This document shows positions 9,177-30,517 of a DNA stretch of 51,197 nt, piece after piece (the stretch's first letter is position 1; every line of letters starts with the position of its first letter). The position numbers were made by a program, and so were the translations under genes. The stretch covers positions 1 through 51,197 of the forward strand of contig JACQUK010000134.1 in assembly GCA_016210325.1 (NCBI GenBank). Direction: 5' to 3'. The notes beneath the pieces were generated by a model, which ran no database searches, was not told where the DNA came from, and worked only from the letters and a program-made list of their open reading frames with translations. Origin of the DNA: Chloroflexota bacterium (GTDB lineage: Bacteria; Chloroflexota; Dehalococcoidia; Lucifugimonadales; HRBIN23).

Positions 9177-10769
9177 TCACCACCCCACTGCGCAGCCATC
9201 CTTGCGGGGGTCGGAGCCGCCCCTTAGCACACCCGCAGTATCCCGTTCAATGACTTGGCCCCCGCCAAACTGCATCCTGTCGTAGCCTGAGATTATGTTG
9301 ATTTGGTGCCCCCGTTGCTGAAGCCCCGCTACTACCTCCTCTGACACCCCATCTTCCAGGGCCACCTCGGCACCCCGTTGCACACTGAAGCGCAGGGCGT
9401 CCAGGGCCTCCTGGGGCCCCATGCCGTAGTCCAGCATGTTCGTCAGCACCTGGAGGTGCCCCTGCGGCTGCTGGAAGGCCCCCATGACCCCGAAGGTCAG
9501 CCATAGCTCGCCCTTCCGCGTCGCCATGGCCGGTATGATGGTGTGGTAGGGCCGCTTGCGCGGCGCCAGAGCGTTGGGGTGGGCCGGGTCCAGGGAGAAG
9601 ATGGAGCCACGGTTATGCAGGACCACACCTGTCCCCGGCGCCACCAGCCCCGTGCCGAAGCCCTGGAACAGGCTGTTGATGAAGGAGCAGGCGTTGCCCC
9701 CGCCGTCCACGGCAGCCAGGTAGACCGTGTCGCCCGCCGGGATGGGGCTTCCCGCCGCGGCCTTGGGCATAGCGCGGTCGGGGTGGACCAGGGCGCGGCG
9801 CCCCGCTGCATACTCCTTGGACAGCAGCCCTGCCACGGGCACCGAAGCCAGGGCGGGGTCGGCGATATAGTGTAGGGCGTCGGCAAGGGCCAGCCGCATG
9901 GCCTCGATGAGGTGATGGTAGCTCTCCGGCGTCTGAGGACCCATGCCGGCCAGGTCAAATCCCTCGGCGATGTTCAGGGCCAGGAGGGCCGCCAGTCCCT
10001 GGCCGTTGGGCGGGCACTCCCACACGGTGGCGCCCCGGTAGTCGGTAGTGATGGGCTGGTCCCAGGTGGAGGCATGGCTTGCCATGTCCTGGGCGGAGAG
10101 CCATCCCCCCTGCTGCTGTAGATACCCGGCGATGGCTTCGGCGACCGGGCCGTGGTAGAAGGCGTCCGAGCCGCCCTCAGCCACGGCACGCAGCGTGCGG
10201 GCCAGCGCCGGCAGGCGCACCACCTCCCCTTCACGGGGAGCGCGCCCGTCACGCAGCAGCTCGCCCCCCGATGGGTAGCGCAGCAGCTTCTCCTCGGCCC
10301 TTTGCCACCGCTCGGCGATGACCTCGGCTACCGGGTAACCATCCTCGGCGTAGCGAATGGCGGGCTCCAGCACGCGGGAGAGGGGCATGGTGCCGCAGGC
10401 CTTCAGCAGCGTCTCCCACCCGTGGACTGCGCCGGGGACGGTGACGGCGTAGGGGCTGAGGTCGGGGATGCTAGCGTGCCCCTGGCGCCGGATCTCCTCC
10501 AGGGACGCCGCCGCTGGGGCGCGGCCGCTGCCGTTGAGGGCCAGCACCCGCTTCTCCTTCGCCAGCCACACCAGGGCGAACATATCGCCGCCCAGGCCGG
10601 TGGACATAGGCTCCGTGACGCAGAGGGCCGCCGCTGTGGCTACCGCAGCGTCCACGGCGTTGCCGCCCTCCAGCAGGGTGCGCAGCCCGGCCACGGCGGC
10701 CAGGGGCTCGCTGGTAGCCACCATGCCATGCCTTGCCAGCACATTCGAACGCCGCGATGCGAAGCGCAT
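9177..10769 (-). CDS. ggt: Gamma-glutamyltransferase family protein
   Basis: MRFASRRSNVLARHGMVATSEPLAAVAGLRTLLEGGNAVDAAVATA; nucleophile region GDTVYLAAVDGGGNACSFINSLFQGFGTG. Confidence 0.93.
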   Translation of the reverse strand: MRFASRRSNVLARHGMVATSEPLAAVAGLRTLLEGGNAVDAAVATAAALCVTEPMSTGLGGDMFALVWLAKEKRVLALNGSGRAPAAASLEEIRRQGHASIPDLSPYAVTVPGAVHGWETLLKACGTMPLSRVLEPAIRYAEDGYPVAEVIAERWQRAEEKLLRYPSGGELLRDGRAPREGEVVRLPALARTLRAVAEGGSDAFYHGPVAEAIAGYLQQQGGWLSAQDMASHASTWDQPITTDYRGATVWECPPNGQGLAALLALNIAEGFDLAGMGPQTPESYHHLIEAMRLALADALHYIADPALASVPVAGLLSKEYAAGRRALVHPDRAMPKAAAGSPIPAGDTVYLAAVDGGGNACSFINSLFQGFGTGLVAPGTGVVLHNRGSIFSLDPAHPNALAPRKRPYHTIIPAMATRKGELWLTFGVMGAFQQPQGHLQVLTNMLDYGMGPQEALDALRFSVQRGAEVALEDGVSEEVVAGLQQRGHQINIISGYDRMQFGGGQVIERDTAGVLRGGSDPRKDGCAVGW

Positions 10770-10949
10770 GATGAGCCCTCCGTCGTTCTCTCTGAGCATT
10801 GCCGCTAGCTTACTACCTCCCTGTGTCAGCGGCCAGTACCCTGCCCTTGACGGCCCTGGAGCGGCTACCTATACTCCCGCCAATAGCTGTGTGTTCTGCG
10901 GCCCGGTGCCCTGGGAGCGCGAGCATCATTGTTGACGAGGAGACGGGAC

Positions 10950-12586: not shown

Positions 12587-13687
12587 CTAGCCTGCCCGGC
12601 CAAAGCTCGCCAGCCGCCGTAGTGCATCTAGCTCCTCGCGCTGGCCCAGGCGGGCGCGGCGGACGGCCTCGCTCAGAATGTGGACCGTCTGGTCGTAGGT
12701 GGCCCGGTCCACCGGGAAGGGGTAGCCGTCCTTGCCGCCGTGGGCGAAGGCGTACAGGGCCGGCTCCCGGTGGCCCACGGGAACGCCGTGCACCAGCTCC
12801 GCCACCAGGCTCAGCGCCCGCACTGTCCGCGGGCCTACCCCCGGCAGGGCCAGCAGCCCCTCGAAGTTGGAGGGCTGGCGCTCGTAGGTGACCAGTAGGG
12901 CCTTGTAGAGGCGGTCGGGGTCCAGGTCGGCCAGCTCGATGTGGTGGTGCACAGGAAGCTCCAGCATCTTGAGGCGTTTGAGCTCTGCCACCAGCACCTC
13001 GGGCCGCTCCTGCGCCACAGCCGGGATGGCCTGGCGCGCCGGCTCCGCCTCGGCGGCCACCAGGTTCAGCACGTACTGCCCCCGCGCCTGGGCCGCGATG
13101 GCGGCGTGGGGCTCCCGCACAAAGCTCTCGACCCGCTGTCCCAGCCAGTGGTAGCGGCGGGCGTAGCGGTCCTGAGCGTTCATCCCCTGCTGCACGACGG
13201 CCCACTGGCCTTTGACAGTGAAGAAGAAGCTGTGGTGGTAGAGCTGGTAGCCGTCCTGGAGGGCCGCCGAGTCCACCTTGGCAGCCATGCGGCTGGCGTA
13301 GACCAGCGGCGCCGGGTCAAGGCCAGTGCGCTGGCCCGCCTCCGTCACCTCGCCCGGCGTCTTTCGGGAGGTGCCGCCCTTGCCGCCGGCGACCCACAGG
13401 CCACTCTCGTGCTCCAGGCCGCGTAGCCCCTCCTTGAGGGCGCCGCAGACGGTGGTGGTGACCCCACTGGAGTGCCAGTCGAAGCCCAACACGCAGCCGA
13501 AGGCCTGGAACCAGAAGGGGTCCGAGAGGCGGCGCAGCACCTCATCCGGCCCGTAGTCCTCCACGATGGCCAGCGTCATGCCCCGCGCCAGCTTGACCAT
13601 GCGCTGGAACAGCCAGGGCGGCGCCTTGCCGCCGTGGAGGGGCAGGTGGGCCAGGCCGGTGCGCTGCCCGCCGGGGGGAGTGGTCAT
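12587..13687 (-). CDS. DUF763 domain-containing protein
   Basis: RTGLAHLPLHGGKAPPWLFQRMVKLARGM... GFDWHSSGVTTTVCGALKEGL... ALPGVGPRTVRALSLVAELVHG. Confidence 0.9.
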   Translation of the reverse strand: MTTPPGGQRTGLAHLPLHGGKAPPWLFQRMVKLARGMTLAIVEDYGPDEVLRRLSDPFWFQAFGCVLGFDWHSSGVTTTVCGALKEGLRGLEHESGLWVAGGKGGTSRKTPGEVTEAGQRTGLDPAPLVYASRMAAKVDSAALQDGYQLYHHSFFFTVKGQWAVVQQGMNAQDRYARRYHWLGQRVESFVREPHAAIAAQARGQYVLNLVAAEAEPARQAIPAVAQERPEVLVAELKRLKMLELPVHHHIELADLDPDRLYKALLVTYERQPSNFEGLLALPGVGPRTVRALSLVAELVHGVPVGHREPALYAFAHGGKDGYPFPVDRATYDQTVHILSEAVRRARLGQREELDALRRLASFGRAG

Positions 13688-15584: not shown

Positions 15585-17207
15585 ATGCGCAGCCAGAAGG
15601 CTTGGCTTCTGCTCATGGGGGTGCTCGGCCTCGTCTTTGTGTTCAGCCTGAGTTGTGCTTCCAGAACACCAACGCCAACCGCCCCTGCTGCCCAACCTAC
15701 CGCCACCACCCCGCGTGCCACGCCCACCCCAACCGCTACAGCGGTCCCCACGGCCAGGCCCACCAGGGTGCTGCGCATCGCTCAGGCGGCTGAGCCAGTC
15801 ACGCTCTTTGCTGGAGCGGACACGGACATCGCCAGCATCCTCTTCCACGCCAACGTGTTCGACTGCCTGGTGGACCGTAAGGCGGACCACAGCATGGGGC
15901 CCGGCCTGGCGACGTCTTGGAAGACTGTGGACCCTACAACGTGGGAGTTCACCCTGCGCCCCGGGCTCAAATGGCACGACGGCAGCCCGGTGGATGCCCA
16001 GTCGGTGGCCGACTACTGGAACTTCCTCCGCACCGACGATGCCAAGACACTGCGCGCCGCTATCCGATTCAAGGGTGTCATTAAAGACGCCCAGCCTGTC
16101 GGCACGGGCACGGTCCGCTTCGTCACTGAGCAATCGGAGCCCATCCTGCCCAACCTGCTTTCGGGCTTCAACTGCGGGGTCGGCAACGCCAAGAGCATCA
16201 AGGCACAGGGGCTCCAGAAGGAACTGGAGAAACCCGTCGGCACCGGCGCCTACCGGGTGGTGGAGTGGAAACGCCAGGTCAACGTGGAGCTGGCCCGGAA
16301 CCCCGACTGGTTCGGGGAGCGCGGCGATGGTGACACGGCCATCATCCGGCCCATACCGGACCAGGGCACTCGCGTGGCCGCCCTGCTGGCTGGCGAGGTG
16401 GACATGATCGTAACGGTGGAGCCGGACTCCATCAAGACCATCCAGGGGAATCCCAACGCCCACGTGACCAGCACCCACATGGTGGACTGGATGATCTACT
16501 ACCCGCACCTCAAGGCCACTGCCCCCATCATCTACCAGTCCAAGGAGTTCCGCCAGGCTGTCAGCATGGCCATTGACCGCGAGGCCATCGCCCGGGACAT
16601 CTTTGGCGGCTACGCGGTCCCTATGCGCGGCGTGTTCCCCAACACGAACCCCTCCTACGATGCCTCCCTGGCATGGCCCTATGACCAGAACAAGGCCAAG
16701 GAGCTTCTGGCGAAGTCTGGCTACGCCGGCCAGGAGATTGTCTTCCAGACCGGCGAGAACATCTTCCAGGGCGACCGGCTCACCACCGAGGCCATCGTCA
16801 ACATGGTCCAGAAGATAGGGGTCAACGCCAAGATCGAGCTGCTGGAGGCGGTGGTGCGGGAGCAGATTGTGCGGGAGAAGACCATGAAGGGGTTCATGAT
16901 CCGTCTTCCCGCCGATTTCGCCTATGACGGCTCTGTGTGGTGGGCCAGCATCAAGCCCGGCGCTGCCATTGACTTCTGGCGCAATGAGCGCGCAGACCAA
17001 CTGATGGGCAAAGACTGCGCCGTGATGTTCGACCTGACAGGGCGCAACGCCTGCTACAAGGAAGCCCAGAAGATCATGTTCGACGAGGTGCCTATCCTCC
17101 AGATCGTCCAGGTGGATTTCGTGGACGCGGTCTCCAGCAATTGGGACTGGAAGCGTCGTCCCAACGAGAAGATTGTCCTGGCTGACTTCAAGTACAAGGG
17201 CAGGTAG
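15585..17207 (+). CDS. ABC transporter substrate-binding lipoprotein (SBP_bac_5, peptide/opine/nickel type)
   Basis: MRSQKAWLLLMGVLGLVFVFSLSCASR lipobox; DPTTWEFTLRPGLKWHDGSPVDAQSVADYWNFLR; FRQAVSMAIDREAIARDIFGGYAVPMRGVFP. Confidence 0.95.
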   Translation: MRSQKAWLLLMGVLGLVFVFSLSCASRTPTPTAPAAQPTATTPRATPTPTATAVPTARPTRVLRIAQAAEPVTLFAGADTDIASILFHANVFDCLVDRKADHSMGPGLATSWKTVDPTTWEFTLRPGLKWHDGSPVDAQSVADYWNFLRTDDAKTLRAAIRFKGVIKDAQPVGTGTVRFVTEQSEPILPNLLSGFNCGVGNAKSIKAQGLQKELEKPVGTGAYRVVEWKRQVNVELARNPDWFGERGDGDTAIIRPIPDQGTRVAALLAGEVDMIVTVEPDSIKTIQGNPNAHVTSTHMVDWMIYYPHLKATAPIIYQSKEFRQAVSMAIDREAIARDIFGGYAVPMRGVFPNTNPSYDASLAWPYDQNKAKELLAKSGYAGQEIVFQTGENIFQGDRLTTEAIVNMVQKIGVNAKIELLEAVVREQIVREKTMKGFMIRLPADFAYDGSVWWASIKPGAAIDFWRNERADQLMGKDCAVMFDLTGRNACYKEAQKIMFDEVPILQIVQVDFVDAVSSNWDWKRRPNEKIVLADFKYKGR

Positions 17208-17252
17208 GACCAGGCAGGCGAGTGAGCAGCCTGCCAACGAGGTGAGAAGGGA

Positions 17253-17383
17253 CTAGGTCCTGTTGACACTGTCCGCTCCCCCTTCGATGGCCTTAGGGTG
17301 AGCGGACCCAACCAGGACCCCGCTCATGGATTCGACAAGCTCACCACGAGCGGGATAAGTGGCAGGATGTCAACAGAACCTAG
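17253..17383. mobile_element. MITE-like element, about 131 bp
   Basis: Termini CTAGGTCCTGTTGACA... and ...TGTCAACAGAACCTAG are inverted; contains internal GATTCGACAAGCTCACCACGAGCGGG module. Confidence 0.7.
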
Positions 17384-17434
17384 CGGGACTGGGGAAGCGC
17401 GGCGGGTGCCGCCACCCAGCGCGAGGGTGAGGGT

Positions 17435-18352
17435 ATGGGCCGCTTTCTGGTCAGGCGGTTCCTGCGCGGCATCCTGGTAGTGCTGGGCGTCTCCACCATT
17501 GTGTTCGGCATCACCCACCTGTCCGGTGACCCGGTCTCGCTGCTGGTGGACCAGGAGTGGACCCACGAGCAGGTGGAGCAGGTACGAAGAGACCTGGGCC
17601 TGGACAAGCCTGTGTACATCCAGTACGTGCGCTACTGGCAGAACGTCCTCCTGGGCGATTGGGGCCAGTCCCTGCGGTACCGCCGGCCAGCGCTGTCCCT
17701 GGTCTGGGAACGGTTCCCGGCCACCGTGGAGCTGGCGGCGGTAACCCTCATCATCGTCGTAGCCCTTTCCATACCGGCGGGGGTCATAGCAGCCGTCAAG
17801 CGAGGAGGGTTCTGGGACCAGGCCATCATGACCCTGGCTATGGTGGGCCAGTCGTGGCCGACCTTCTGGCTGGGCCTGGTGCTGATCCTGGTCTTTGCGG
17901 TGAAGTTCCACTGGCTCCCTACCTCTGGCCGCGGCGGCTTTGACCACCTCATTCTGCCTGCGTTCACCCTGGCCTTCCTGCCCATGGCGATGATGGCCCG
18001 CCTCACCCGCTCGGCCATGCTGGACGTTCTGCGGGCAGACTACATTCGCACGGCCCGCGCCAAGGGGTTGAGGAACAGCACGGTCATTGTGCGTCACGCG
18101 CTCCGGAACGCGGCAATCCCGGTGGTCACCATCCTGGGCATTCAGGTGGGGTCCCTGCTGGCGGGCGCCGTAGTGACCGAGACGGTTTTCGCCTGGCCGG
18201 GAGTCGGCCGCGCCGCGGTGGAGGCCGTCCAGCAGCGGGACTACCCGGTGGTCCAGGCTGTGGTGCTGTTGACCTCGGTAGTCTTTGTCACGGTGAACCT
18301 GGCCGTGGACACTCTGTACGGGGTCCTGGACCCGCGTATCCGCTACGCCTAA
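17435..18352 (+). CDS. ABC transporter permease (DppB-like)
   Basis: MGRFLVRRFLRGILVVLGVSTIVFGITHLSGDPV...; SAMLDVLRADYIRTARAKGLRNSTVIVRHALRNAAIPVVTILG. Confidence 0.95.
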   Translation: MGRFLVRRFLRGILVVLGVSTIVFGITHLSGDPVSLLVDQEWTHEQVEQVRRDLGLDKPVYIQYVRYWQNVLLGDWGQSLRYRRPALSLVWERFPATVELAAVTLIIVVALSIPAGVIAAVKRGGFWDQAIMTLAMVGQSWPTFWLGLVLILVFAVKFHWLPTSGRGGFDHLILPAFTLAFLPMAMMARLTRSAMLDVLRADYIRTARAKGLRNSTVIVRHALRNAAIPVVTILGIQVGSLLAGAVVTETVFAWPGVGRAAVEAVQQRDYPVVQAVVLLTSVVFVTVNLAVDTLYGVLDPRIRYA

Positions 18353-18361
18353 GGGGATGGG

Positions 18362-19297
18362 ATGGGCACCCCGACGGGAAACAGCATGCAGGTCAGTGCC
18401 TCCCTGGGCCAGATGGTGGACACCGCCAGGCGGCGGGAATGGCTGCGGAGGACGCTCAGACGCCTGAAGCTGCCCATCACCGGCTGGGTCAGCCTCCTCA
18501 TCCTGGTTGTCCTGGTCCTGGCTGCCATTCTAGCGCCGTTCATCTCGCCCTACGACCCCCTGGAGCAGTCCCTGGCCGACCGTTTGAGCCCCCCGTTGAC
18601 CCGCACCGCTGACGGCCTGTTCTTCCCCCTGGGCACAGACCGCCTTGGAAGGGATTTCCTGAGCCGCATGTTCTATGGCGCCCGCATTTCTCTCAGCCTG
18701 GCTTTTGCTGTCGTAGTGGGTGGGACACTGGTGGGCGTAGCAGTTGGCCTGGTTTCCGGGTTCTTCGGAAAGACGGTGGACCAGGCCCTGATGACCATCG
18801 TGGACATCCAGCTCAGCATCCCCAGCATCCTGCTGGCGATTGCCCTGCTGGCGGTGTTGGGGTCCAGCATCCCAACCCTGCTGGTCGTCCTCATCATCAG
18901 CCGGTGGATTGCCCATGCCCGCGCAGTGCGGGGACAGGTCATGTCCCTCAAGGAGAAGGAGTACATCGAGGCGGCCAGGGCCGTTGGGGCCTCCAATGCG
19001 CGGATTGTGCTGCGCCACCTGCTGCCCAACACCATGTCCATTGTGCTGGTGCTGGCGACCCTCCAGTTCGCCGATGTCATTGTGCTGGAGGCCAGCCTGA
19101 GCTTTCTGGGCCTGGGGGTCCAGCCGCCGACCCCTAGCTGGGGCGGTGAGCTGCAACAGGGGCGGGCCTTCATGCAGACCGCCTGGTGGCTTAGCACCTT
19201 CCCCGGCATTGCCCTGATGCTGGTGACGCTGAGCATGAACCGCCTGGGAGACTGGCTTCGTGATGTTCTCGACCCAGCCCTGCGCGGGTCGCTATAG
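18362..19297 (+). CDS. ABC transporter permease (DppC-like)
   Basis: FPLGTDRLGRDFLSRMFYGARISLSLAF; KEKEYIEAARAVGASNARIVLRHLLPNTMSIVLV. Confidence 0.95.
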   Translation: MGTPTGNSMQVSASLGQMVDTARRREWLRRTLRRLKLPITGWVSLLILVVLVLAAILAPFISPYDPLEQSLADRLSPPLTRTADGLFFPLGTDRLGRDFLSRMFYGARISLSLAFAVVVGGTLVGVAVGLVSGFFGKTVDQALMTIVDIQLSIPSILLAIALLAVLGSSIPTLLVVLIISRWIAHARAVRGQVMSLKEKEYIEAARAVGASNARIVLRHLLPNTMSIVLVLATLQFADVIVLEASLSFLGLGVQPPTPSWGGELQQGRAFMQTAWWLSTFPGIALMLVTLSMNRLGDWLRDVLDPALRGSL

Positions 19298-19332
19298 AGA
19301 CAGCTCTTTGACCTGAGCAAAAAGGAGGACGA

Positions 19333-20313
19333 GTGAGTCAGCGCATTGAGAAGCTGTTGCCGCCGCAACTGGTCCAGAGCCGGGGGGAAACCCGCGACTA
19401 CAACATGATGAGCACCTGGATCAGGCCCTGGGACTACCAGGAGGAACTGGACGTCGGCATTATCGGACTGCCCCAGACCCTCTCTCACGGCTTTCAGGGG
19501 ACCTTCATGGGCCCCAACGCGGTCCGGGAGACCTTTGCCACCTTTGGCACGCGCAGTTTCGACTTTGATGTTGACGTGGCGGACCTGAAGGTCCGGGACG
19601 TCGGCGACGTGAAGCTGCACCCCACCAGTGTGGTGGAGACCCATGCCAACTTCGAGAGCGCCCTGGCCGATGTCTATAAGCAGCGCCCCAACTTCATCCC
19701 TATCCTCCTGGGCGGCCACCATGCGGTGGCTGCGCCATCGGTGCGCGGGTTCAAGAAGGGGCACGGTGGATTCAAAGTGGGCCTCATTGACTTCGACGCC
19801 CACAACGACCTGCGGGACCCGACCTACGAGGGACCCAGCGGCGGCACGCCCTTCCGCCAGCTCATTGACCAGGGGTACGTTGATGGCCGCAATGCTGTCC
19901 AGGTGGGGCTGCACGGGTTCCTGAGCTCCTCGGTGCTCAAGGAGTACGCTGACAAGCGCGGCCTGCGCATGGTCTCGGCGCGGGAGGTACGGGCCCGCGG
20001 CATCATCAAAGTCGTGGAGGAGGCGATAGCCCAGGCCTCGGACGGGACGGATGCCATCTACATCTCCTTTGACATGGATGCCATTGAGGCGGCGCTGGCC
20101 CCAGGGACAGTTGCCCACACGCCTGGCGGACTCATGCTGGGCGACGTCTTCGAAGCCCTCCACCTTCTGGGTCAGACGCCCAAGGTGATGGCTATGGACA
20201 TCGTGGAGATGGACCCCCTGCGCGACCTGCGCGGCATGACCCCCAGGGTGGGCTGCATGATGCTGATGTCCTTCCTGGCAGGGCTCCACCAGCGCAAGAA
20301 GCTGTACCGGTAA
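19333..20313 (+). CDS. Ureohydrolase (arginase/agmatinase family) U1, metal-ligand set intact
   Basis: GTG start after AAAGGAGG. Motifs LLGGHHAVAAP, DFDAHNDLRDP, ISFDMDAIEAALAPGT. Confidence 0.93.
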   Translation: MSQRIEKLLPPQLVQSRGETRDYNMMSTWIRPWDYQEELDVGIIGLPQTLSHGFQGTFMGPNAVRETFATFGTRSFDFDVDVADLKVRDVGDVKLHPTSVVETHANFESALADVYKQRPNFIPILLGGHHAVAAPSVRGFKKGHGGFKVGLIDFDAHNDLRDPTYEGPSGGTPFRQLIDQGYVDGRNAVQVGLHGFLSSSVLKEYADKRGLRMVSAREVRARGIIKVVEEAIAQASDGTDAIYISFDMDAIEAALAPGTVAHTPGGLMLGDVFEALHLLGQTPKVMAMDIVEMDPLRDLRGMTPRVGCMMLMSFLAGLHQRKKLYR

Positions 20314-20323
20314 GGAGGGAGCG

Positions 20324-21298
20324 GTGACTACCAAGACCATCGAGTTCCTGGGCCCACCGCAGATCATCCGCCTGAACCAACTGGAGGGGCAGAAGGAGCG
20401 CCGGGTCAGCAACTGGATCACGGCCTGGGACTTCAGCGAGGCCATTGACGTGGGCATCGTGGGGGTCCCGCTGTCCAAGGCGGGGCACCTGCCCGCCGGA
20501 GTTGACTCCACCCCCAACGCCATTCGCAAGGCCTTCATCTACTTCACCACCTACGACCCGGACCTGGGGGTAGACATCCAGTCGCTAAAGGTCCGCTACG
20601 TGGGGGACGTCCGACTCCACGCCACGGACCTCGTGGAGAACAACCGGCGCATTGAGCAGGCCATGAAAGAGGTCTTTGGCCTCACGGGCAGGGTAGTGAC
20701 GGTCATCATGGGCGGCGATGGCTCCATCACCGCGCCGGTGGTCAGGGGGATGGCCGCCGCCACCAAGCAGAAGATCGGCCTGGTGTGGTTCGACTCCCGG
20801 GCCGACAGCCGCGACGTGGCCGAGGGCGGGCAAAGCGACGTGACCCCTCTGCGCAACATCCTGGAGGCCGGCGTCGTGCAGGGGAGCAGCACCGCCGTGG
20901 TGGGTCTCCACGGGTTCGCCAGCTCAATGGAAGAGCACGGGTGGGCGGCGGGCCAGGGCGTCACGCTGATTACCGCACGGCAGGCCCGCAAAGAGGGCAT
21001 CGCCAACGTCACTCAACGGGCACTGGAAGTGGCCTCCAAGGGCACCGACGCGGTGTACGTCAGCGTGGATGGCACCGTGCTGGACATGTCCTCCAGCGCC
21101 TCTCACCTGGCAACGGTGCCGGGGGGGCTGTCCTGGCTGGAGGTGCAGGAAGCACTGTTCCTGCTGGGACAGGGCACCAGGGTCAAGGCCCTGGACATCA
21201 CCGCAATAGACACCTATGACGACATCAAGGAGGTTGTTGCCAGGACCAGCGCCGGACTGCTGCTGGCCTTCCTGGCGGGAGTCAAGCTTCGCAAATAG
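20324..21298 (+). CDS. Ureohydrolase-fold paralog U2, ligands degenerate (probable pseudoenzyme)
   Basis: Homologous to U1, but IMGGDGSITAP (His to Gly), WFDSRADSRD (His to Arg), VSVDGTVLD (second Asp to Thr). Confidence 0.88.
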   Translation: MTTKTIEFLGPPQIIRLNQLEGQKERRVSNWITAWDFSEAIDVGIVGVPLSKAGHLPAGVDSTPNAIRKAFIYFTTYDPDLGVDIQSLKVRYVGDVRLHATDLVENNRRIEQAMKEVFGLTGRVVTVIMGGDGSITAPVVRGMAAATKQKIGLVWFDSRADSRDVAEGGQSDVTPLRNILEAGVVQGSSTAVVGLHGFASSMEEHGWAAGQGVTLITARQARKEGIANVTQRALEVASKGTDAVYVSVDGTVLDMSSSASHLATVPGGLSWLEVQEALFLLGQGTRVKALDITAIDTYDDIKEVVARTSAGLLLAFLAGVKLRK

Positions 21299-21331
21299 GG
21301 TGGCCACGGAAGCCACGATGAGGAGGATACT

Positions 21332-22255
21332 ATGGCAGCGCCGGCAGGGGAGCGAGTTGTTTACCTGAATGGCAAGTTTGTCCCCGAGAGCCAGGCGACG
21401 GTCTCGATCTCTGACCACGGGTTCACCCACGGCGACGCCGCCTTCGACACCATGCGGACCTTCAAAGGCAAGGTTTTCAAGCTCAAGGAGCATGTGGAGC
21501 GACTATACCGCTCGTGCAAGTACGCCGGCATAGACCCCGGTATCTCCCAGGGGGAGATGTCACGTCTGACGGACGAGGTGGTGGAGCGCAACAAGCACCT
21601 GCTGGGCCCCAGCGACGACTTCTGGGTGACCCAGCGAGTCACGCGCGGGGTCCCCTCGGCGCGGCCCGGCGAGAAGGAGCAGCCCACCATCATCATCCTG
21701 TGCCGGCCACTGCCGTGGGAGCGGGCCAAGTTCTACCAGACGGGTATCAGCATGAGGACTTCGCCCATCCGCCGAACACCCCCACAGTACCTGGACCCCC
21801 GGGCCAAGCTCCAGAACTACCTGAACCAGGTGATGGCCGAGATGCTGGCCAAGCAGGGAGACCCGGACGTCTGGAGCCTGCTGCTGGATGAGAACGGCAA
21901 TGTGGCCGAAGGCTCCGGCTACAACTTCTTCATCGTGCGGGATGGGAGGGTCATCACCTCCCACGAGCGCTACGTCCTGGGGGGCATCAGCCGCCAGACA
22001 ACGATGGAGATCTGCCAGGAACTGAACATCCCGGCCGCAGAGATGGACTTCAACCTCTACGATGTGTATACCGCTGACGAGGCGTTCATCACCGCCACCA
22101 GCGTCTGCCTGCTGCCGGTGCGCTCCGTTGACACCCGGACCATTGGGGATGGGGCCATCCCCGGCTCCATCACAGGGCGTATTCTCGGCACGTGGAGCGG
22201 GATGGTGGGCGTGGACATCGCGGGACAGTACCTGGCCCACATCAAGAGCGCCTGA
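21332..22255 (+). CDS. Class IV aminotransferase (BCAT/D-amino acid transaminase-like)
   Basis: MAAPAGERVVYLNGKFVPESQATVSISDHGFTHGDAAFDTMRTFKGKVFKLKEHVERL; DPRAKLQNYLNQVMAEM (PLP Lys), NVAEGSGYNFFIV. Confidence 0.95.
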   Translation: MAAPAGERVVYLNGKFVPESQATVSISDHGFTHGDAAFDTMRTFKGKVFKLKEHVERLYRSCKYAGIDPGISQGEMSRLTDEVVERNKHLLGPSDDFWVTQRVTRGVPSARPGEKEQPTIIILCRPLPWERAKFYQTGISMRTSPIRRTPPQYLDPRAKLQNYLNQVMAEMLAKQGDPDVWSLLLDENGNVAEGSGYNFFIVRDGRVITSHERYVLGGISRQTTMEICQELNIPAAEMDFNLYDVYTADEAFITATSVCLLPVRSVDTRTIGDGAIPGSITGRILGTWSGMVGVDIAGQYLAHIKSA

Positions 22256-22277
22256 GGAAGGGCGTCCGGAGGTGCCT

Positions 22278-23258
22278 GTGTACACGCGGGAGCTATTGCC
22301 GTCCTTCGCAGGGGTATCGAGCTTTCTGCGGGCACCGTGGGGCACGGCCCGCCAGGTCCGGCCCGGGGCCGTGGCGGTGCTCGGTGCTCCCCATGACGCC
22401 ACCTCCAGCGCACGTCAGGGTGCCCGCTACGGCCCCAAAGCTATCAGAGAGGCCTCCGCCGATTTCGTCTACGACCTCCAGGCCTCGGAGACCCATACCT
22501 TGGTGGACATCGAGACGGGAAAGCAGCTCCGGCTCCCGACTGGTGGCAAGGTAGTAGACCTTGGTGATGCGCCCCTTTACCCCCTCAGCCTGGCCCGCAG
22601 CATGGCATCGCTGCGGAACATCGCGGCCCAAGTGGTCCACCGCGGCGCCTTCCTGGTGGCCCTTGGCGGCGACGCCTTCATCACCTACCCGCTGCTCCAG
22701 GGTGTGGCCCGTGCCCTGGGGCAGGGCGCCGCGCTGGGGTACATCCAGGTGTCCAGCCAGTTTAACCTGGCCGACGCCGACGCGGCCTGGGGCAAGAACT
22801 GGCACGGCGCCACGGCCCGCCGGCTCCTGGAACTGGACCTGGTGAAGCCCCAGAACATGGCCTTCCTCGGCGTCTCCGGCTACGCCCTGGCAGAGGAGTG
22901 GGAGCTGGCCCAAGCTAAAGGGATGAAGGTGGTCACCGTGGAGGCGGTGGGCAAGCTGGGGGCCACACGGGCGGCAGAGGAGGCAGTGGCGGCAGCCGGC
23001 GCCGGGTGCGGGGCCATCTACCTGAGCGTGGACATCGGGGCGGTAGATACCGGCTACGCCCCTGGCCGAGGCGAGGTGGTCATCGGTGGCATGACGCCCC
23101 GAGAGCTGTTGGAGACCATGCGTGCTCTTTCCAAAGTCACCACTCTCCGGGCCATGGACATGGTGGAGGTGGCGCCCACGGTGGACCCCAGCGGCCGTGC
23201 TCAGCGGCTGGCGGCGGAAGCGGTCATCGAGCTCATCAGCCCCAGAGCGCTGGCCTGA
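22278..23258 (+). CDS. Ureohydrolase-fold paralog U3, ligands degenerate
   Basis: GGAGG upstream of GTG 22278. Motifs ALGGDAFITYP, YIQVSSQFNLAD, LSVDIGAVDTGYAPG; ligand His/Asp residues replaced. Confidence 0.88.
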   Translation: MYTRELLPSFAGVSSFLRAPWGTARQVRPGAVAVLGAPHDATSSARQGARYGPKAIREASADFVYDLQASETHTLVDIETGKQLRLPTGGKVVDLGDAPLYPLSLARSMASLRNIAAQVVHRGAFLVALGGDAFITYPLLQGVARALGQGAALGYIQVSSQFNLADADAAWGKNWHGATARRLLELDLVKPQNMAFLGVSGYALAEEWELAQAKGMKVVTVEAVGKLGATRAAEEAVAAAGAGCGAIYLSVDIGAVDTGYAPGRGEVVIGGMTPRELLETMRALSKVTTLRAMDMVEVAPTVDPSGRAQRLAAEAVIELISPRALA

Positions 23259-23282
23259 GGCTGAGGCGTGGGAGGCTGAAGC

Positions 23283-24299
23283 ATGCCTCTGAACAAGGAC
23301 CCCCTGCCCATGTTCGCCGGCATCCTCACCTTCTTGCGGGTGCCCCACGGGGACCTCGAGGACCTGCAAGAGGGGATGATAGCCATCGCAGGGGTCACCT
23401 ACGACCTCTCCAACACCGCCCGCATCGGCTCCCGCTTCGGCCCGCGAAACATGCGGGAGACCTCCACCTTCTATGCGGGCAGCATCGAGACCGGCAGCGA
23501 GGTCATCGAGGTCACCACCAAGGAGGTGGTGCGCTACAATCCGAAGCCCCGGATGCTGGACCTGGGCGACCTCAACGTGTACCCCGTGGACTGGCCCAAG
23601 ACCGAGGCATCCCTCCGGCGGGCCATGCGCGAGATCACGCGACGGGGCGCCTTCCCCGTCATCCTGGGGGGCGATAACTTCATCACCACCGCCCTGATTC
23701 AAGGCTACAAGGATGCGGTGGTAGCAAAAGGTGGCCGGAGGGTGGGGTACATCCAGCTTTCCCGCAATCTTGACTTGGGGAAAGAGGACCCTGTGTGGGG
23801 CAACGTGTGGCGGGGCGCCACTGCTCGCCAAATTATCGAGATGGGTGCTGTGGACCCCCGCAACATGGTCTGGGTCGGGCCTCACGGCTACGTGCGGGCC
23901 GAGGAGTGGGTCTACGCGCAGGAGCTGAACGCACGGGTGTTTACCCTGAAGGACATCCGCAAACAGGGCATCCTGCCGGTGATGCGCCAGGCTGTAGACA
24001 TCGCGGGTGCAGGCTGCGATGGCATCTACGTGAGCGTTGACCTGGACGTAGTGGACGGCTGCTACACCGCCGGCACCGCGGTCCCGAACCTGGACGGGGT
24101 CCGCGATGTGGAGCTGGTGGACGCCATGGACGTGCTGTGGGATGCCAAGGTTGGCGCAGTGGGGGTGGTGGGGGTGAACCCAACGGTGGAGTTCGTGTAC
24201 CACACCAGTCAGCGCATCGCGGTCACCGCCATTCTGCGGCTCATTGCCCCGCGGATTGCTGCGGTCTCGCCCACGCCTTCCGTTCCAGCCCGAACCTAG
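23283..24299 (+). CDS. Ureohydrolase-fold paralog U4, ligands partly degenerate
   Basis: ILGGDNFITTA (His to Asn), YIQLSRNLDLG (Asp/His lost), VSVDLDVVDGCYTAGT (DxD kept). Confidence 0.88.
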   Translation: MPLNKDPLPMFAGILTFLRVPHGDLEDLQEGMIAIAGVTYDLSNTARIGSRFGPRNMRETSTFYAGSIETGSEVIEVTTKEVVRYNPKPRMLDLGDLNVYPVDWPKTEASLRRAMREITRRGAFPVILGGDNFITTALIQGYKDAVVAKGGRRVGYIQLSRNLDLGKEDPVWGNVWRGATARQIIEMGAVDPRNMVWVGPHGYVRAEEWVYAQELNARVFTLKDIRKQGILPVMRQAVDIAGAGCDGIYVSVDLDVVDGCYTAGTAVPNLDGVRDVELVDAMDVLWDAKVGAVGVVGVNPTVEFVYHTSQRIAVTAILRLIAPRIAAVSPTPSVPART

Positions 24300-24324
24300 A
24301 ACAGCCGAGAAAGGGGGCTGACCC

Positions 24325-25314
24325 ATGGTGGCAGGAAGACCGGGACCCTGGTATGAAGGCGCGGCCACCTTCCTGCACGCGCCGATGGTGGACTTTGATA
24401 CACTGAAACCGGGCATGGTGGCGGTGAGCGGCGCTCCCCACGACAGCACCCACTCCACTCGCTTTGGCACGCGGACGGGCCCCAAGGGGGTCCGAGAGGC
24501 CTCTTTGCCCTTGGCCGACAAGCTGCGCAACGCCGGCAAGAAAGGCCTGGTGGACGTGGCCACCGGGGCGCGGCTGGTCATGAAGGATGGTGTGCTGGCC
24601 GACGTGGGCGACGCCAATGTGTACCCCACCGACGTGATGAAGACCACTGAGGGCATCGCCGGCCTGGTCTACGAGGTGGTGAAGCGGGGCGCCTTCTCGG
24701 TATGCCTGGGTGGCGATCACTACGTCGGCTACCCCTCATGCCTTGGCGCTACCCGGGCCATTGTGGAGAAGGACCCCCGGGTGAAAGTGGGCTACATCCA
24801 CGTGGACGGGCACCTGGACTTCACCGACGGCAACCCCATCTTTGGACGGTACAACCACGGCACCAACGCCCGGCGCATCTCCGAGTTGCCCATGGTGTCG
24901 CCCAGTAACATGGCCTGGGTGGGCATCCAGGGGTGGGTCAGCACCGAGCAGTGGGACCTCATCCACAAGAATGGCGCCAAGATCTTCACCCACAAGGACC
25001 TGTGGGAGCTGGGCGCACGAGAGGTGGCCCGCCGCGCCGCCGACCACGCCATCCAGGGTTGCGACTACATCTACGTATCCCTGGACATTGACTGCATTGA
25101 CACCGGCTTCGCGCCCGGCACCGGTGGCGTGGTCATCGGCAGCGTAACCCCGCTGATGTACCTCCAGATCATCGAAGAGCTGGCCAAGTACCCTATCCTG
25201 GCCTTTGACCTGACGGAGGTCACCCCCCGTCTGGACTACACCGAGCGGACGCCGCGGATGGCGGCCGAGGCGGTCCTGCGCTTCATTGGGCGCAAGGTGT
25301 TCGAGATTCACTAG
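24325..25314 (+). CDS. Ureohydrolase (arginase/agmatinase family) U5, metal-ligand set intact
   Basis: CLGGDHYVGYP, YIHVDGHLDFTDG, VSLDIDCIDTGFAPGTGG. Confidence 0.93.
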   Translation: MVAGRPGPWYEGAATFLHAPMVDFDTLKPGMVAVSGAPHDSTHSTRFGTRTGPKGVREASLPLADKLRNAGKKGLVDVATGARLVMKDGVLADVGDANVYPTDVMKTTEGIAGLVYEVVKRGAFSVCLGGDHYVGYPSCLGATRAIVEKDPRVKVGYIHVDGHLDFTDGNPIFGRYNHGTNARRISELPMVSPSNMAWVGIQGWVSTEQWDLIHKNGAKIFTHKDLWELGAREVARRAADHAIQGCDYIYVSLDIDCIDTGFAPGTGGVVIGSVTPLMYLQIIEELAKYPILAFDLTEVTPRLDYTERTPRMAAEAVLRFIGRKVFEIH

Positions 25315-25331
25315 GGAAGAGGAGGCCCCCG

Positions 25332-26633
25332 ATGGTGAAGAGCGTCGTGCGCGGGCAGGCCAGCAAGGAGCTCTGGGAGATGGCCAGGGAGTTCATCCCG
25401 GGGGCGACCCTGCACCTGCGGGGCCTGCCGGATGAGGTAGCCACGGTCTTTGTCCGCGGCAAGGGGAGCCGCATCTGGGACGTGGACGGCAATGAGTACA
25501 TTGACTATCTGATCGGGGCAGGTCCCCTCATCCTGGGGCATGCCCACCCTGCTGTGGTCCAGGCGGTGAAGGAACGCCTGGAGATGGGCTCCCAGTTCTA
25601 CCAGCTTACCGATGTGGCCATACGACTGGTGAAGAAGATAGTGGAGGCGGTCCCCTGCGCCGAGGCCCTGAAGTTCACCAACTCGGGCAACGAGGCCACC
25701 TATGTGGCCCTGCGGCTGGCGCGAGGCTACACCGGCAAGCCCAAGATCCTGAAGTTCGAGGGCGGCTATCACGGCAGCCACGACTACGCGGCCTGGAGCA
25801 CTACACCATCGGGGCCACCCAACTACCCGAAGGGCGAGCCAGACTCCGACGGGGTGCCCAGCGTGTTGGGCGACCGCGTTCTGGTGGCGCCCTTCAACAA
25901 TACTGACTACGTCTGCTCTCTCATCCGCCAGCACAAGGACGAGTTGGCGGCGGTCATCGTGGAGCCCTTCTTCCGCATCATCAAGCCCAAGCCGGGCTTT
26001 CTGGAGGCCCTGCGACAGAACACCAAGGAGTGCGGTGTGCTGCTGGTCTTCGACGAGGTGGTTACCGGCTTCCGTATCGCCTGGGGGGGTGCCCAGGAGC
26101 TTTATGGCGTCGTCCCTGACTTGGCGACCCTGGGCAAAGCCATCGGCGGCGGGTTCCCCGTGGGTGCCGTGGTGGGCCCCAAGGAGATCATGGGCCGACT
26201 GGACCCGGCACTGAAACCCCAGGGACGGTACGTAATGACCAGCGGCACCTTCAGCGGCAACCCCATCACTGCCACGGCCGGCCTGACCACCCTCAACGAG
26301 CTGGAGAAGCCAGGTACGTACGATGCGCTACGGCGCTCCGGCGAGCGACTCAAGAAAGGCTTCAAGCAGGTCTGCGACCTCCTGGAGACGCCCGCGCAGG
26401 TGCTGGGAGAGGGGCCGATTGTGGACATCCTGTTCACTGACGAGGAGATCGTAGACTACCGCTCCACCATGAGGGCCGACCAGGAGAAGGGGCGCAGGGT
26501 GAGCATCGAGATGATTAAGCGGGGAGTCTTCCGTCCGCCTGGCGGGAAGTTCTACATCTCCAAGGCCCACACGGATGCCGACCTGGACGAGACGGTCAAC
26601 ATCTTCGAGGCTGCCCTGCGCGCGGCGTACTAA
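25332..26633 (+). CDS. Class III aminotransferase, glutamate-1-semialdehyde 2,1-aminomutase (HemL)-like
   Basis: NEYIDYLIGAGPLILGHAHPAVVQAV; LKFTNSGNEATYVALRLARGYTGKPKILKFEGGYHGSHD; FDEVVTGFRIAWGG; LGKAIGGGFPVGAVVG. Confidence 0.93.
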   Translation: MVKSVVRGQASKELWEMAREFIPGATLHLRGLPDEVATVFVRGKGSRIWDVDGNEYIDYLIGAGPLILGHAHPAVVQAVKERLEMGSQFYQLTDVAIRLVKKIVEAVPCAEALKFTNSGNEATYVALRLARGYTGKPKILKFEGGYHGSHDYAAWSTTPSGPPNYPKGEPDSDGVPSVLGDRVLVAPFNNTDYVCSLIRQHKDELAAVIVEPFFRIIKPKPGFLEALRQNTKECGVLLVFDEVVTGFRIAWGGAQELYGVVPDLATLGKAIGGGFPVGAVVGPKEIMGRLDPALKPQGRYVMTSGTFSGNPITATAGLTTLNELEKPGTYDALRRSGERLKKGFKQVCDLLETPAQVLGEGPIVDILFTDEEIVDYRSTMRADQEKGRRVSIEMIKRGVFRPPGGKFYISKAHTDADLDETVNIFEAALRAAY

Positions 26634-26710
26634 GGCTCTATATCCATCGGCTGCACACACTTCGCATGGCACCTCTCTATGCTGGTGAAAAGGGAAAGAG
26701 GCGCTGAGCC

Positions 26711-28411
26711 ATGAGCGGAAAAACCACCAGTTGGGGCGTGCGGAAGAGCCGGATAACCGCCGAGCACGGGATGGTGCTCTCGGAGCACGCGGCGGTAACC
26801 AGGGCGGGCCTGGAGGTGCTCATGGCCGGGGGCAACGCCGTGGACGCTGCGGTGGCCATGGGGTTTGCCATTGGCGTGTGCGGGCCTTTCATGAGCGGTC
26901 TGGGCGGCGGTGGCCACATGGTCATCTACAACGCCCGCAACAAGAAAAGCGCCGTGGTGGACTACAACATGCGGGCACCCAAGGCAGCCACGCCCGCCAT
27001 GTATGAGCTGCTCCCAGGCCCCCCAGAGGGCAACTTTGGCTGGCGCCCGGTGAAGGACCAGGCAAATGCGGTGGGCTACCGTTCCATCACGGTCCCCGGC
27101 ACCATCGCCGGGCTGTGCCTGGCCCTGGAGAGGTTCGGCACCATGGGCCGCCAGGACGTCATGCGCCACGCCATTCGGTACGCCGAGGAAGGGTTCGACG
27201 CAGACATCTTCCTGGCCCTGTCCATCGCCTCGCGCTGGGGCATCATTACCCAGTTCCCGGAGACGATGGGGCTGTTCCGGAACGCTGACGGGTCACTGCT
27301 GACCTCACCGCTTTCACAGAAGGCCGCGGGGAAGATGGTGCAGAAAGACCTGGCCCGCACACTCAGGAGGATAGCGCAAGAGGGACCGGATGCCTTCTAT
27401 CGTGGCGAAGTCGCCAGGGCCATCGTGCGGCACGTGCTCGGGCATGGCGGGCTGCTGGGCGAGGAGGACCTGGCCTCCTACCAGGCGGACGTGTGGTCTC
27501 CAGGAGGGATAGCTTCCTACCGTGGCTACACTGTCGTGGCCCCGCCCATCGCAAGCGGTGGGCCGACGCTGGTGGAAGCCCTGCACATCCTGGACAACTT
27601 CGACATGGCTTCTTTGCCCCATAACTCTGCCGAAGCTCTGCATCTTATTGCCGAGGCCCTGCGGCTGGCTTTTGCCGACCGCTACCACCTGATGGGGGAC
27701 CCGGACCTCATCCCTACGCCCTACGAAAAGCTAGCTTCACCGGGCTACGCCAAGGAGTTGGCCCGGTCTGTCCGTCCCGATAGGGATCTGCCGCTGCCCC
27801 CGGTCAGAGAGCTCCAGAACACCCTTGTTGAGGCCGCGCTGGCCGGCCAGCACGGTGCAGACACCACACAGAGCTGTGTGGTGGACAAAGAGCGCAACAT
27901 GGTCTCTATAACCCAGACCTTGCAGACCTGGAGCGGAGTCATCCCCCCGGGGACTGGGGTACCCCTGAACGGCGCCATGAGCTGGTTCAATCCAGAGCCG
28001 GGGACGCCCAACTCAGTCCAGGGTGGCAAACGCATCCTCTCCAACATGTCCCCGGTCCTGGTGCTGAAGGACAGCAGGCCGGTCATGGCGCTGGGCGCCC
28101 CCGGAGGCCGAAAGATCGTCAGTGCGGTGCTCCAAGTGCTGGTGAACATCCTGGACTACGGCATGGAGCTTAACCAGGCCATCGCCGCCCCGCGGCTGGA
28201 TGCCAGCGCCCTGGACCTGCTGGCCGACGACCGATTGCCGCAGCGGAGCATCCAAGGTCTTCAGGCCCGGGGACACCGCGTGGCGACGGTCCGCGAGGAG
28301 TTGCTGGCACGGTACTTTGCGGGGCCGGCTGGAATACAGGTGGACGGGGGCACCGGGAAGCTGCGCAGCGGGCTATGCGAGTTCGACCTGGCCTCAGCCG
28401 CGGGGTACTAG
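26711..28411 (+). CDS. ggt: Gamma-glutamyltransferase family protein (second copy)
   Basis: AEHGMVLSEHAAVTRAGLEVLMAGGNAVDAAVAMGFAIGV; HGADTTQSCVVDKERNMVSITQTLQ nucleophile region; APGGRKIVSAVLQVLVNILDYGM. Confidence 0.93.
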   Translation: MSGKTTSWGVRKSRITAEHGMVLSEHAAVTRAGLEVLMAGGNAVDAAVAMGFAIGVCGPFMSGLGGGGHMVIYNARNKKSAVVDYNMRAPKAATPAMYELLPGPPEGNFGWRPVKDQANAVGYRSITVPGTIAGLCLALERFGTMGRQDVMRHAIRYAEEGFDADIFLALSIASRWGIITQFPETMGLFRNADGSLLTSPLSQKAAGKMVQKDLARTLRRIAQEGPDAFYRGEVARAIVRHVLGHGGLLGEEDLASYQADVWSPGGIASYRGYTVVAPPIASGGPTLVEALHILDNFDMASLPHNSAEALHLIAEALRLAFADRYHLMGDPDLIPTPYEKLASPGYAKELARSVRPDRDLPLPPVRELQNTLVEAALAGQHGADTTQSCVVDKERNMVSITQTLQTWSGVIPPGTGVPLNGAMSWFNPEPGTPNSVQGGKRILSNMSPVLVLKDSRPVMALGAPGGRKIVSAVLQVLVNILDYGMELNQAIAAPRLDASALDLLADDRLPQRSIQGLQARGHRVATVREELLARYFAGPAGIQVDGGTGKLRSGLCEFDLASAAGY

Positions 28412-28497
28412 ACTGAATACCGTAGGGCAGGGCGCCGGGAGCGTCCAAAGCCCCGTGCTGCGTGTCCTCGGCCCGCAATCTCAGGCTGGGAGGAGGC

Positions 28498-29487
28498 ATG
28501 TCTATGGTGAAACACCTGCTGCCACCCGGACTCATCCTGGCGTCGAGCCCTCTGGGGGCCAACCCGGACTACAACATGCTGAACAGCGTCATCCTGCCCT
28601 GGGACTTCAAGGAAGACATCCATGCCGGTATCATCGGCGTCCCGTTCAACAAAGGGACCCACATGTTCAAGGGGACCAATGAGGGACCCAACGCGGTGCG
28701 GGAGACCTTCCTCTCCTTCGCCACCCGCAGCTTCGATTTTGGCGTGGACATCATGAACCTGAAAGTGCGGGACATCGGTGACGTGCAGATGCACCCCACC
28801 GATGTGGTGCGGTGCCACGCCAACACTCAGGAGGCGCTGACAGAGCTTTACCAGCGTCATCCGGGGTTTGTGCCTATCATCATCGGTGGCGACCACGCTA
28901 TCGCAGCCCCCTCGTGCCGCGCCCTCCGTGACGGTCGCAGGTTCAGGCGGGTGGGCCTGGTTGACTTCGACGCACACAACGACCTGCGGGACCCAGCCTA
29001 CGACGGCCCCAGCAGCGGCACACCGTTCCGTCAGCTCATTGATGGGGGGTACGTGAACGGGCGCAACGCGGTCCAGGTGGGCTTGCACGGCTTTCTCTCC
29101 TCCTCGGTGCTCAAAGACTATGCCGACAAGCACGGCCTCCGCATGGTCTCGGCCAGGGAGGTGCGCCAGCGGGGCATCGAGGATGTGGTGGAAGAGGCCC
29201 TGGCCCAGGCCGGCGATGGGACAGACGCCATCTATGCCTCCTTCGACATTGATGCCATTGAGGCGGCCTTCGCGCCAGGCACCGGCTCCCACACCCCCGG
29301 CGGGCTGCTGCTGGGCGATGTTTTCGAGGCCATGTACATGCTGGGCCGCGACCCCAGGGTGGCGGCCATGGACCTGGTGGAGTTGGACCCCATCAAGGAC
29401 CTCAAAAAGATGACCTCCCGTGTAGGGTGCATGATGATCCTGACCTTCCTGGTGGGGCTCCAAGAGCGCCTTCAGCTCTACGCCTAG
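28498..29487 (+). CDS. Ureohydrolase (arginase/agmatinase family) U6, metal-ligand set intact
   Basis: IIGGDHAIAAP, DFDAHNDLRDP, ASFDIDAIEAAFAPGTG; close paralog of U1. Confidence 0.94.
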   Translation: MSMVKHLLPPGLILASSPLGANPDYNMLNSVILPWDFKEDIHAGIIGVPFNKGTHMFKGTNEGPNAVRETFLSFATRSFDFGVDIMNLKVRDIGDVQMHPTDVVRCHANTQEALTELYQRHPGFVPIIIGGDHAIAAPSCRALRDGRRFRRVGLVDFDAHNDLRDPAYDGPSSGTPFRQLIDGGYVNGRNAVQVGLHGFLSSSVLKDYADKHGLRMVSAREVRQRGIEDVVEEALAQAGDGTDAIYASFDIDAIEAAFAPGTGSHTPGGLLLGDVFEAMYMLGRDPRVAAMDLVELDPIKDLKKMTSRVGCMMILTFLVGLQERLQLYA

Positions 29488-29527
29488 TGGATATGTAGTG
29501 CCCGCAACCGCTAGCGAGGAGAGGCCC

Positions 29528-30517
29528 ATGCCCCTGAACCGGGACCCGCTGCCCGCCTTCGCCGGGATCCTTACCATGCTACGGGCACCCAAGGCTGAGG
29601 TGGAGGACCTGAAGGAAGGCATGGTGGCCATCCTGGGCGTCCCCTACGACCTTTCTACCACGGGCCGCATCGGCGCCCGGTTCGGCCCCCGCAGCATGCG
29701 TGAGACGGCCACCTACTATGCCAGCCATATTGAAAGGGGGGACCTCATCGAGGTCACTACGGGCCAAGTCCTGGTGGCCCCCAAGGAACTGCGGCTCGTG
29801 GACCTGGGCGACCTGAACGTCTACCCCGTTGACTGGCCCAAGACGGAGGCAGCCCTCCGGGAGGCCATCGCCCGAATCCTCGAACGCGGGGCCTTCCCCG
29901 TTGTCCTTGGTGGCGACCACTTCATCTCCTATCCTCTGACCCTGGGCCTCCACGACGCCATCCTCCGCCGTGGCGGCAGGAGAATCGGCTATATCCAGGT
30001 CTCCAACCGGCTGGACCTGGGGCAGGAGGACCCCCTCTGGGGCAGGGTGTGGACGGGAGCTACCGCTAGGAGGGTCCTGGAGTCAGGCGCCGTGGACCCC
30101 CGCAACATGGTCTGGCTGGGTGCCCACGGGTACGTCCCCCTGGAGCAACTGGAGACGGCCAGAGAGTTGGATCTCCGGGTCTTCACCCTGGGCGACATGC
30201 GACGTGGAGGTATCCGAGCAGTGGCCCGCCAGGCTGTGGAAGTGGCTTCACAGGGCTGCGACGCCGTCTACCTGAGCCTGGACATGGGTGTGGTCAATGG
30301 GAGCTACGCCGCTGGTACTGCTGCTCCCAGCTTCGACGGGCTGCGGGATGTCGAGCTGCTTGAGGTCATGGACGAGCTGGCGCAATCCCCCATCGGCGCC
30401 TTGGACATCGTGGGGGTGAACCCCACCGTCGAGTTCGTGTACCACACCACACAGCGGCTGGCGGTCACCGCCCTCATCCGCTTCATTGCCCCCAGGGTCC
30501 TGGGCGGCACGGTCTGA
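29528..30517 (+). CDS. Ureohydrolase-fold paralog U7, ligands degenerate; close paralog of U4
   Basis: VLGGDHFISYP (His kept), YIQVSNRLDLG (Asp/His lost), LSLDMGVVNGSYAAGT (second Asp to Gly); N-terminus MPLNRDPLPAFAGILTMLRAP parallels U4. Confidence 0.9.
   Translation: MPLNRDPLPAFAGILTMLRAPKAEVEDLKEGMVAILGVPYDLSTTGRIGARFGPRSMRETATYYASHIERGDLIEVTTGQVLVAPKELRLVDLGDLNVYPVDWPKTEAALREAIARILERGAFPVVLGGDHFISYPLTLGLHDAILRRGGRRIGYIQVSNRLDLGQEDPLWGRVWTGATARRVLESGAVDPRNMVWLGAHGYVPLEQLETARELDLRVFTLGDMRRGGIRAVARQAVEVASQGCDAVYLSLDMGVVNGSYAAGTAAPSFDGLRDVELLEVMDELAQSPIGALDIVGVNPTVEFVYHTTQRLAVTALIRFIAPRVLGGTV

Follow-up and report, generated by a model that had tools for sequence, protein, structure and literature searches.

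Seven genes of the arginase/ureohydrolase family, four of them depleted of metal ligands, lie in a plus-strand cluster of about 15 kb (15585-30517) of a Chloroflexota genome, and the locus raises the question of how intact and depleted copies are combined. In particular, the last two genes, U6 and U7, were described in the first-pass annotation as a self-contained pair of active enzyme and pseudoenzyme. The window, which is the whole stretch of 51,197 nucleotides analysed, is contig C120 of a 2.29 Mb genome (G000) that is 82% complete.

Gene content and metal ligands

The genes run in the order OppA-OppB-OppC, U1, U2, class IV aminotransferase, U3, U4, U5, class III aminotransferase, gamma-glutamyltransferase, U6 and U7, with intergenic gaps of 9 to 86 nt from OppB onward. 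All seven U proteins match PF00491 (arginase/ureohydrolase) over their full length, with 155-232 bits against a curated cut-off of 22. The ligand states below are given in the order H101, D124, H126, D128, D232 and D234, then E277, as aligned with solved ureohydrolases, and homologues are those of G324, a genome of the same order and another family.

15585..17207, + strand, OppA-like solute-binding protein (SBP_bac_5; the G324 equivalent, at the matching place, has 30% identity)
17435..18352, + strand, OppB-like permease (55% identity to the gene beside the G324 array)
18362..19297, + strand, OppC-like permease (51% identity to the G324 gene)
19333..20313, + strand, U1, A-type ureohydrolase, all six metal ligands intact (HDHDDD+E)
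20324..21298, + strand, U2, A-type pseudoenzyme with H101G, H126R, D234T and E277A (GDRDDT+A); its G324 orthologues lie beside U1-type genes
21332..22255, + strand, class IV (BCAT-like) aminotransferase (two G324-cluster homologues, 47% and 44%)
22278..23258, + strand, U3, B-type pseudoenzyme of the U3 clade, five ligands lost and 1/6 left (ASQNDG+E)
23283..24299, + strand, U4, B-type pseudoenzyme of the U4/U7 clade (NSNDDD+G)
24325..25314, + strand, U5, B-type ureohydrolase, six ligands intact (HDHDDD+E)
25332..26633, + strand, class III (glutamate-1-semialdehyde-aminomutase-like) aminotransferase (G324-cluster homologue, 37%)
26711..28411, + strand, gamma-glutamyltransferase
28498..29487, + strand, U6, A-type ureohydrolase, six ligands intact (HDHDDD+E), placed by the trees as a lineage-specific duplicate of U1
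29528..30517, + strand, U7, B-type pseudoenzyme with D124S, H126R, D234G and E277G (HSRDDG+G; 3/6 ligands and the catalytic Glu gone), placed by the trees as a lineage-specific duplicate of U4

The six Asp/His ligands of the binuclear metal site, which are the test for a catalytic ureohydrolase, are all present in U1, U5 and U6, while three to five of them are missing from U2, U3, U4 and U7, and the Glu that follows the ligands is also lost in U2, U4 and U7. U6 starts with the ATG at 28498, preceded by GGGAGGAGG, and U7 with the ATG at 29528, preceded by GAGGAGAGG and located 40 nt past the U6 stop; the likely start of U3 is the GTG at 22278 (a corrected call). The first-pass annotation had called U6 intact and U1-like and U7 degenerate and U4-like, with U1-U2 as an intact and a degenerate A protein and U3-U4-U5 as two degenerate and one intact B proteins, and these descriptions agree with the ligand states and with identities of 65% for U1-U6 and 62% for U4-U7 (A and B proteins share 21-30%).

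All of U1-U7 score under the NCBIfam equivalog cut-offs. The formimidoylglutamase model TIGR01227 (229 bits) is not reached by U6 (192.1) or U1 (192.3), and the best score with the agmatinase model TIGR01230 (174.3 bits) is that of U6, with 130.3. No guanidine riboswitch is found upstream of the cluster at the gathering score, and urease is not found in the window's genome, which is 82% complete. Outside the ureohydrolase cluster, the window has a second gamma-glutamyltransferase gene (9177-10799, - strand) and a gene for a DUF763 protein (12587-13687, - strand, 438 bits), a family without known function.

Related arrays and duplication history

With U7 as query, 295 genomes of the class yield one other carrier, G004, which belongs to another order and is 80% complete, and a search of the window's order gives G324, a two-contig genome. 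The G004 array is on the 11.5 kb contig C21 (public record JADFJI010000033.1, Chloroflexi bacterium isolate B41T1B8), which is the sole match of the genome-contig scan, and the plasmid search with U7 gives only about 34% identity or lower among the matches listed. G324 has eleven PF00491 genes in 17 kb (C1:1735213-1751673), in the order A-active, A-dead, class IV aminotransferase, class III aminotransferase (other strand), an intact X-type gene, A-active, A-dead, U3, U4, U5, U4', U5' and U5'', where dead means ligand-depleted. A second class IV aminotransferase and OppABC are found upstream of the first A pair, so these neighbours of the window's cluster also lie beside the G324 array. The G004 array is formed by U3, U4, U5, U4' and U5' and has no A gene. 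The U3-U4-U5 order is kept in three genomes of three families and two orders, and the pair of A-active and A-dead genes is present twice in G324.

Such arrays are found in four Chloroflexota genomes, most of them fragmented, and one is only partly seen. G725, which belongs to a different class of the phylum, carries a dead gene paired with an intact one and, separately, a B-like array at a contig end with at least one dead member. The pair (L082, contig C280, 13059-14045 and 14052-15011) is formed by adjoining dead (D124G, H126D, E277G) and intact ureohydrolases that are mutual sisters, which makes it a further independent origin of a dead copy; at 17195-18208 of the same locus, an intact-looking B-type gene lacks the stretch of the GGDH motif, by deletion or assembly error. 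The single A-family genes of other Chloroflexota classes are intact; some have Asn at H101, which the solved formimidoylglutamase shares. Within the window's order, X-type genes that are single and intact occur in several genomes. Among genes of the same families, 14 of 30 in tandem have lost two or more ligands, against 0 of 24 that stand singly (Fisher p = 7e-5, a guide only, as the genes are related and were gathered by similarity and not at random). Some tandem members lack a dead partner: G324 has unpaired intact members (L034_7180 and L034_15585) and G004 has a tandem pair of ureohydrolases that both keep all ligands (L040, contig C163, 227-1237 and 1287-2384). G004 also encodes distant arginase-like proteins outside arrays (L063 on C190 and L065 on C111), which have Ser at H101 and Cys at E277, and near the G324 array a cobalamin riboswitch (L034, 3723-3905, - strand) lies ahead of genes for a permease and a periplasmic binding-protein-like protein.

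In maximum-likelihood trees, the split into subfamilies A (U1, U2, U6) and B (U3, U4, U5, U7), which had been proposed on first annotation, is fully supported (100/100), each subtype forms its own clade, and the clade placement confirms that U6-U7 joins one A and one B protein. The dead B proteins fall into a single clade, divided into the subtypes U3 and U4/U7 (91-99% bootstrap), and D124S and E277G are found in 6/6 and H141R in 5/6 members of the U4/U7 clade. The dead A proteins form another, separate clade. The U2 clade falls with intact single-copy genes from other classes in a larger tree (98/88), and it is uncertain where the dead A clade belongs with respect to U1 and to the single-copy genes. 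A single common origin of all dead copies is rejected (AU p 1e-92); by the AU tests, dead copies arose at least twice here, independently of the metformin-hydrolase subunit B.

U6 is sister to U1 and U7 is sister to U4, and by the AU tests U7 does not group with either of the U4-type copies in other genomes (p 0.004 and 0.0002), nor U6 with the second A-active gene of G324 (p 0.002), which places both duplications in the window's own lineage. The divergence (pN) is similar for U1-U6 (0.235) and U4-U7 (0.243), so a single duplication event could possibly have produced both. Both copies of U4-U5, including U4' and U5', have one-to-one orthologues between G004 and G324, which indicates that the U4-U5 block was duplicated before the two lineages parted and was then kept, and the A-active and A-dead trees of the two G324 A pairs are congruent. 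As read from these trees, the units are duplicated and inherited together as blocks, and the conserved units lie within a subfamily, being U1 and U2 for A and U3, U4 and U5 for B. The repeated grouping of active enzyme and pseudoenzyme noted in the first-pass annotation is thus recurrent in relatives within each subfamily, but U6-U7 as a self-contained pair is not supported, as the pairings conserved elsewhere are A-active with A-dead (G324, twice) and B-dead-dead-active (G324 and G004). The pattern that the first-pass annotation named as its own refutation, local duplications with no conserved pairing, is thus observed for U6-U7, but not for U1-U2 or U3-U4-U5.

Possible roles of the ligand-depleted copies

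Because distant relatives show these groupings of active and dead copies as well, the dead ones probably serve as functional subunits in mixed enzyme complexes. The pN/pS values, with synonymous sites near saturation, are 0.29-0.65 for dead and 0.32-0.63 for active copies, a shared range, so purifying selection maintains the dead proteins as it does the active ones. The predicted fold of U7 is a complete ureohydrolase (pLDDT 75, pTM 0.83) that matches guanidinase and metformin hydrolase chains; the predictions are of monomers only, and the poor U2 model (pLDDT 57) is left out.

The favoured reading, which the sequence comparisons make moderately likely, is that the cluster encodes heteromeric ureohydrolases that work like the metformin hydrolase MetCaCb and lie outside its lineage, with U6 and U7 as alternative subunits and not as a closed enzyme. 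Complex A would be formed by U1 as catalytic and U2 as dead, structural subunit, and complex B by U5 as catalytic subunit together with U3 and U4 as two types of dead subunit. A dead subunit physically associated with the catalytic one in the usual trimer or hexamer of the fold would stabilise it and help to form or cap the pocket, the role that MetCb has for MetCa. Later in this lineage, the duplication of U1 and U4 gave rise to U6 and U7, which are most likely a second catalytic subunit working with U2 and a second dead subunit working with U5, and could change the substrate range. Judging from the transporter, the aminotransferases and the gamma-glutamyltransferase, the substrate may be an amino compound with a guanidino or amidino group, and the pathway would probably run from uptake by OppABC to the breakdown of one or more guanidino/amidino compounds. 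Against this reading count the small number of genomes with such arrays (four), the tandem members without a dead partner, the lack of unit A in G004, the unsure relationship of U2 to U1 and the class III aminotransferase, which is only 37% identical between genomes. More tentatively, the stoichiometry of unit B could be that of an obligate heterotrimer (or its dimer), in which one catalytic and two dead subtypes hold their own positions and U7 and U6 are exchangeable, widening the substrate range; this putative three-part ureohydrolase would differ from the two-part MetCaCb.

U6 and U7 could instead be a mixed A-B heteromer of their own, with U6 catalytic and U7 its dead partner, one duplicate coming from each unit. 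The genes adjoin, 40 nt apart in the same operon, the like divergence means that they were perhaps duplicated together, and their identity of 27% is not far under the 32% of MetCa and MetCb. It is nevertheless an unlikely arrangement, as a pair of A-active and B-dead genes is absent from all other genomes searched, the conserved units stay within a subfamily, and G004 keeps unit B without any A gene, which argues that B-dead proteins need no A partner. We give still less weight to the idea that the degenerate proteins are not subunits and have new functions of their own, for example in binding guanidino compounds without metal, sensing them or carrying them: any retained function would account for the purifying selection and the type-specific replacements, but the dead genes are duplicated and inherited with the intact gene of their own subfamily and ligand loss is confined to tandem contexts. 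Decay of functionless duplicates, to which the greater ligand loss of the window's U3 (five ligands) and U4 (H101N) relative to their G324 and G004 orthologues could point, is very improbable, as the open frames are full-length, pN/pS is like that of active genes, the gene order is the same over family and order distances, and purifying selection is found in all four dead types.

Comparison with known ureohydrolases

The heteromeric ureohydrolases proposed here are best compared with MetCaCb, which is described in PMC11271267 and PMC11399263 as an alpha2-beta4 enzyme in which only alpha binds metal and both subunits are needed. In these descriptions it is a dimer of trimers, each with one catalytic and two dead subunits, and the dead subunit caps the active pocket and keeps the catalytic one soluble. 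As in MetCaCb, MfmAB, MefH and the dimethylguanidine hydrolase DmgH, intact and ligand-depleted ureohydrolase genes adjoin (here in U1-U2, U3-U4-U5 and U6-U7), the dead partner retains the fold, and D124 and H126 are lost (GAQLD in MetCb, SSQFN in U3, SSQLD in G324). MetCa and MetCb, however, are mutual sisters (100/99) far from the A and B clades, and membership of the dead copies in the MetCb clade is rejected (AU p 1e-5 for joining dead B, 7e-7 for joining dead A). The nickel chaperone HypA is not found in G000 (82% complete), G324 or G004 (80% complete). MetCaCb consists of a single active and a single dead gene; the arrays here reach eleven genes, with two dead subtypes per B unit. By analogy, the A unit (one intact, one dead) and the B unit (one intact, two dead subtypes) would fit the MetCaCb plan, reached independently.

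The nearest solved relative of U6 is the formimidoylglutamase HutG (3m1r, E 4.5e-56), and those of U5 and U7 are guanidinases (7esr and 9fek, E about 1e-34), enzymes that are known as single genes forming homomers, unlike the tandem array here. Tandem ureohydrolases of putative Limnocylindrales, in the Chloroflexota, are mentioned in PMC11399263 and said to be independent of MetCaCb, and this tandem may be the G725 pair or the array described here; in the literature searched, arrays of this kind are not described. The first heteromeric ureohydrolases with a dead subunit were described in 2024, in one lineage only, while the present arrays, with as many as eleven genes and with units copied as blocks, point to at least two additional origins of such subunits. 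These arrays would be repeated natural trials of the passage from a homomeric enzyme to a complex of enzyme and pseudoenzyme, and they add a testable case with three paralogues.
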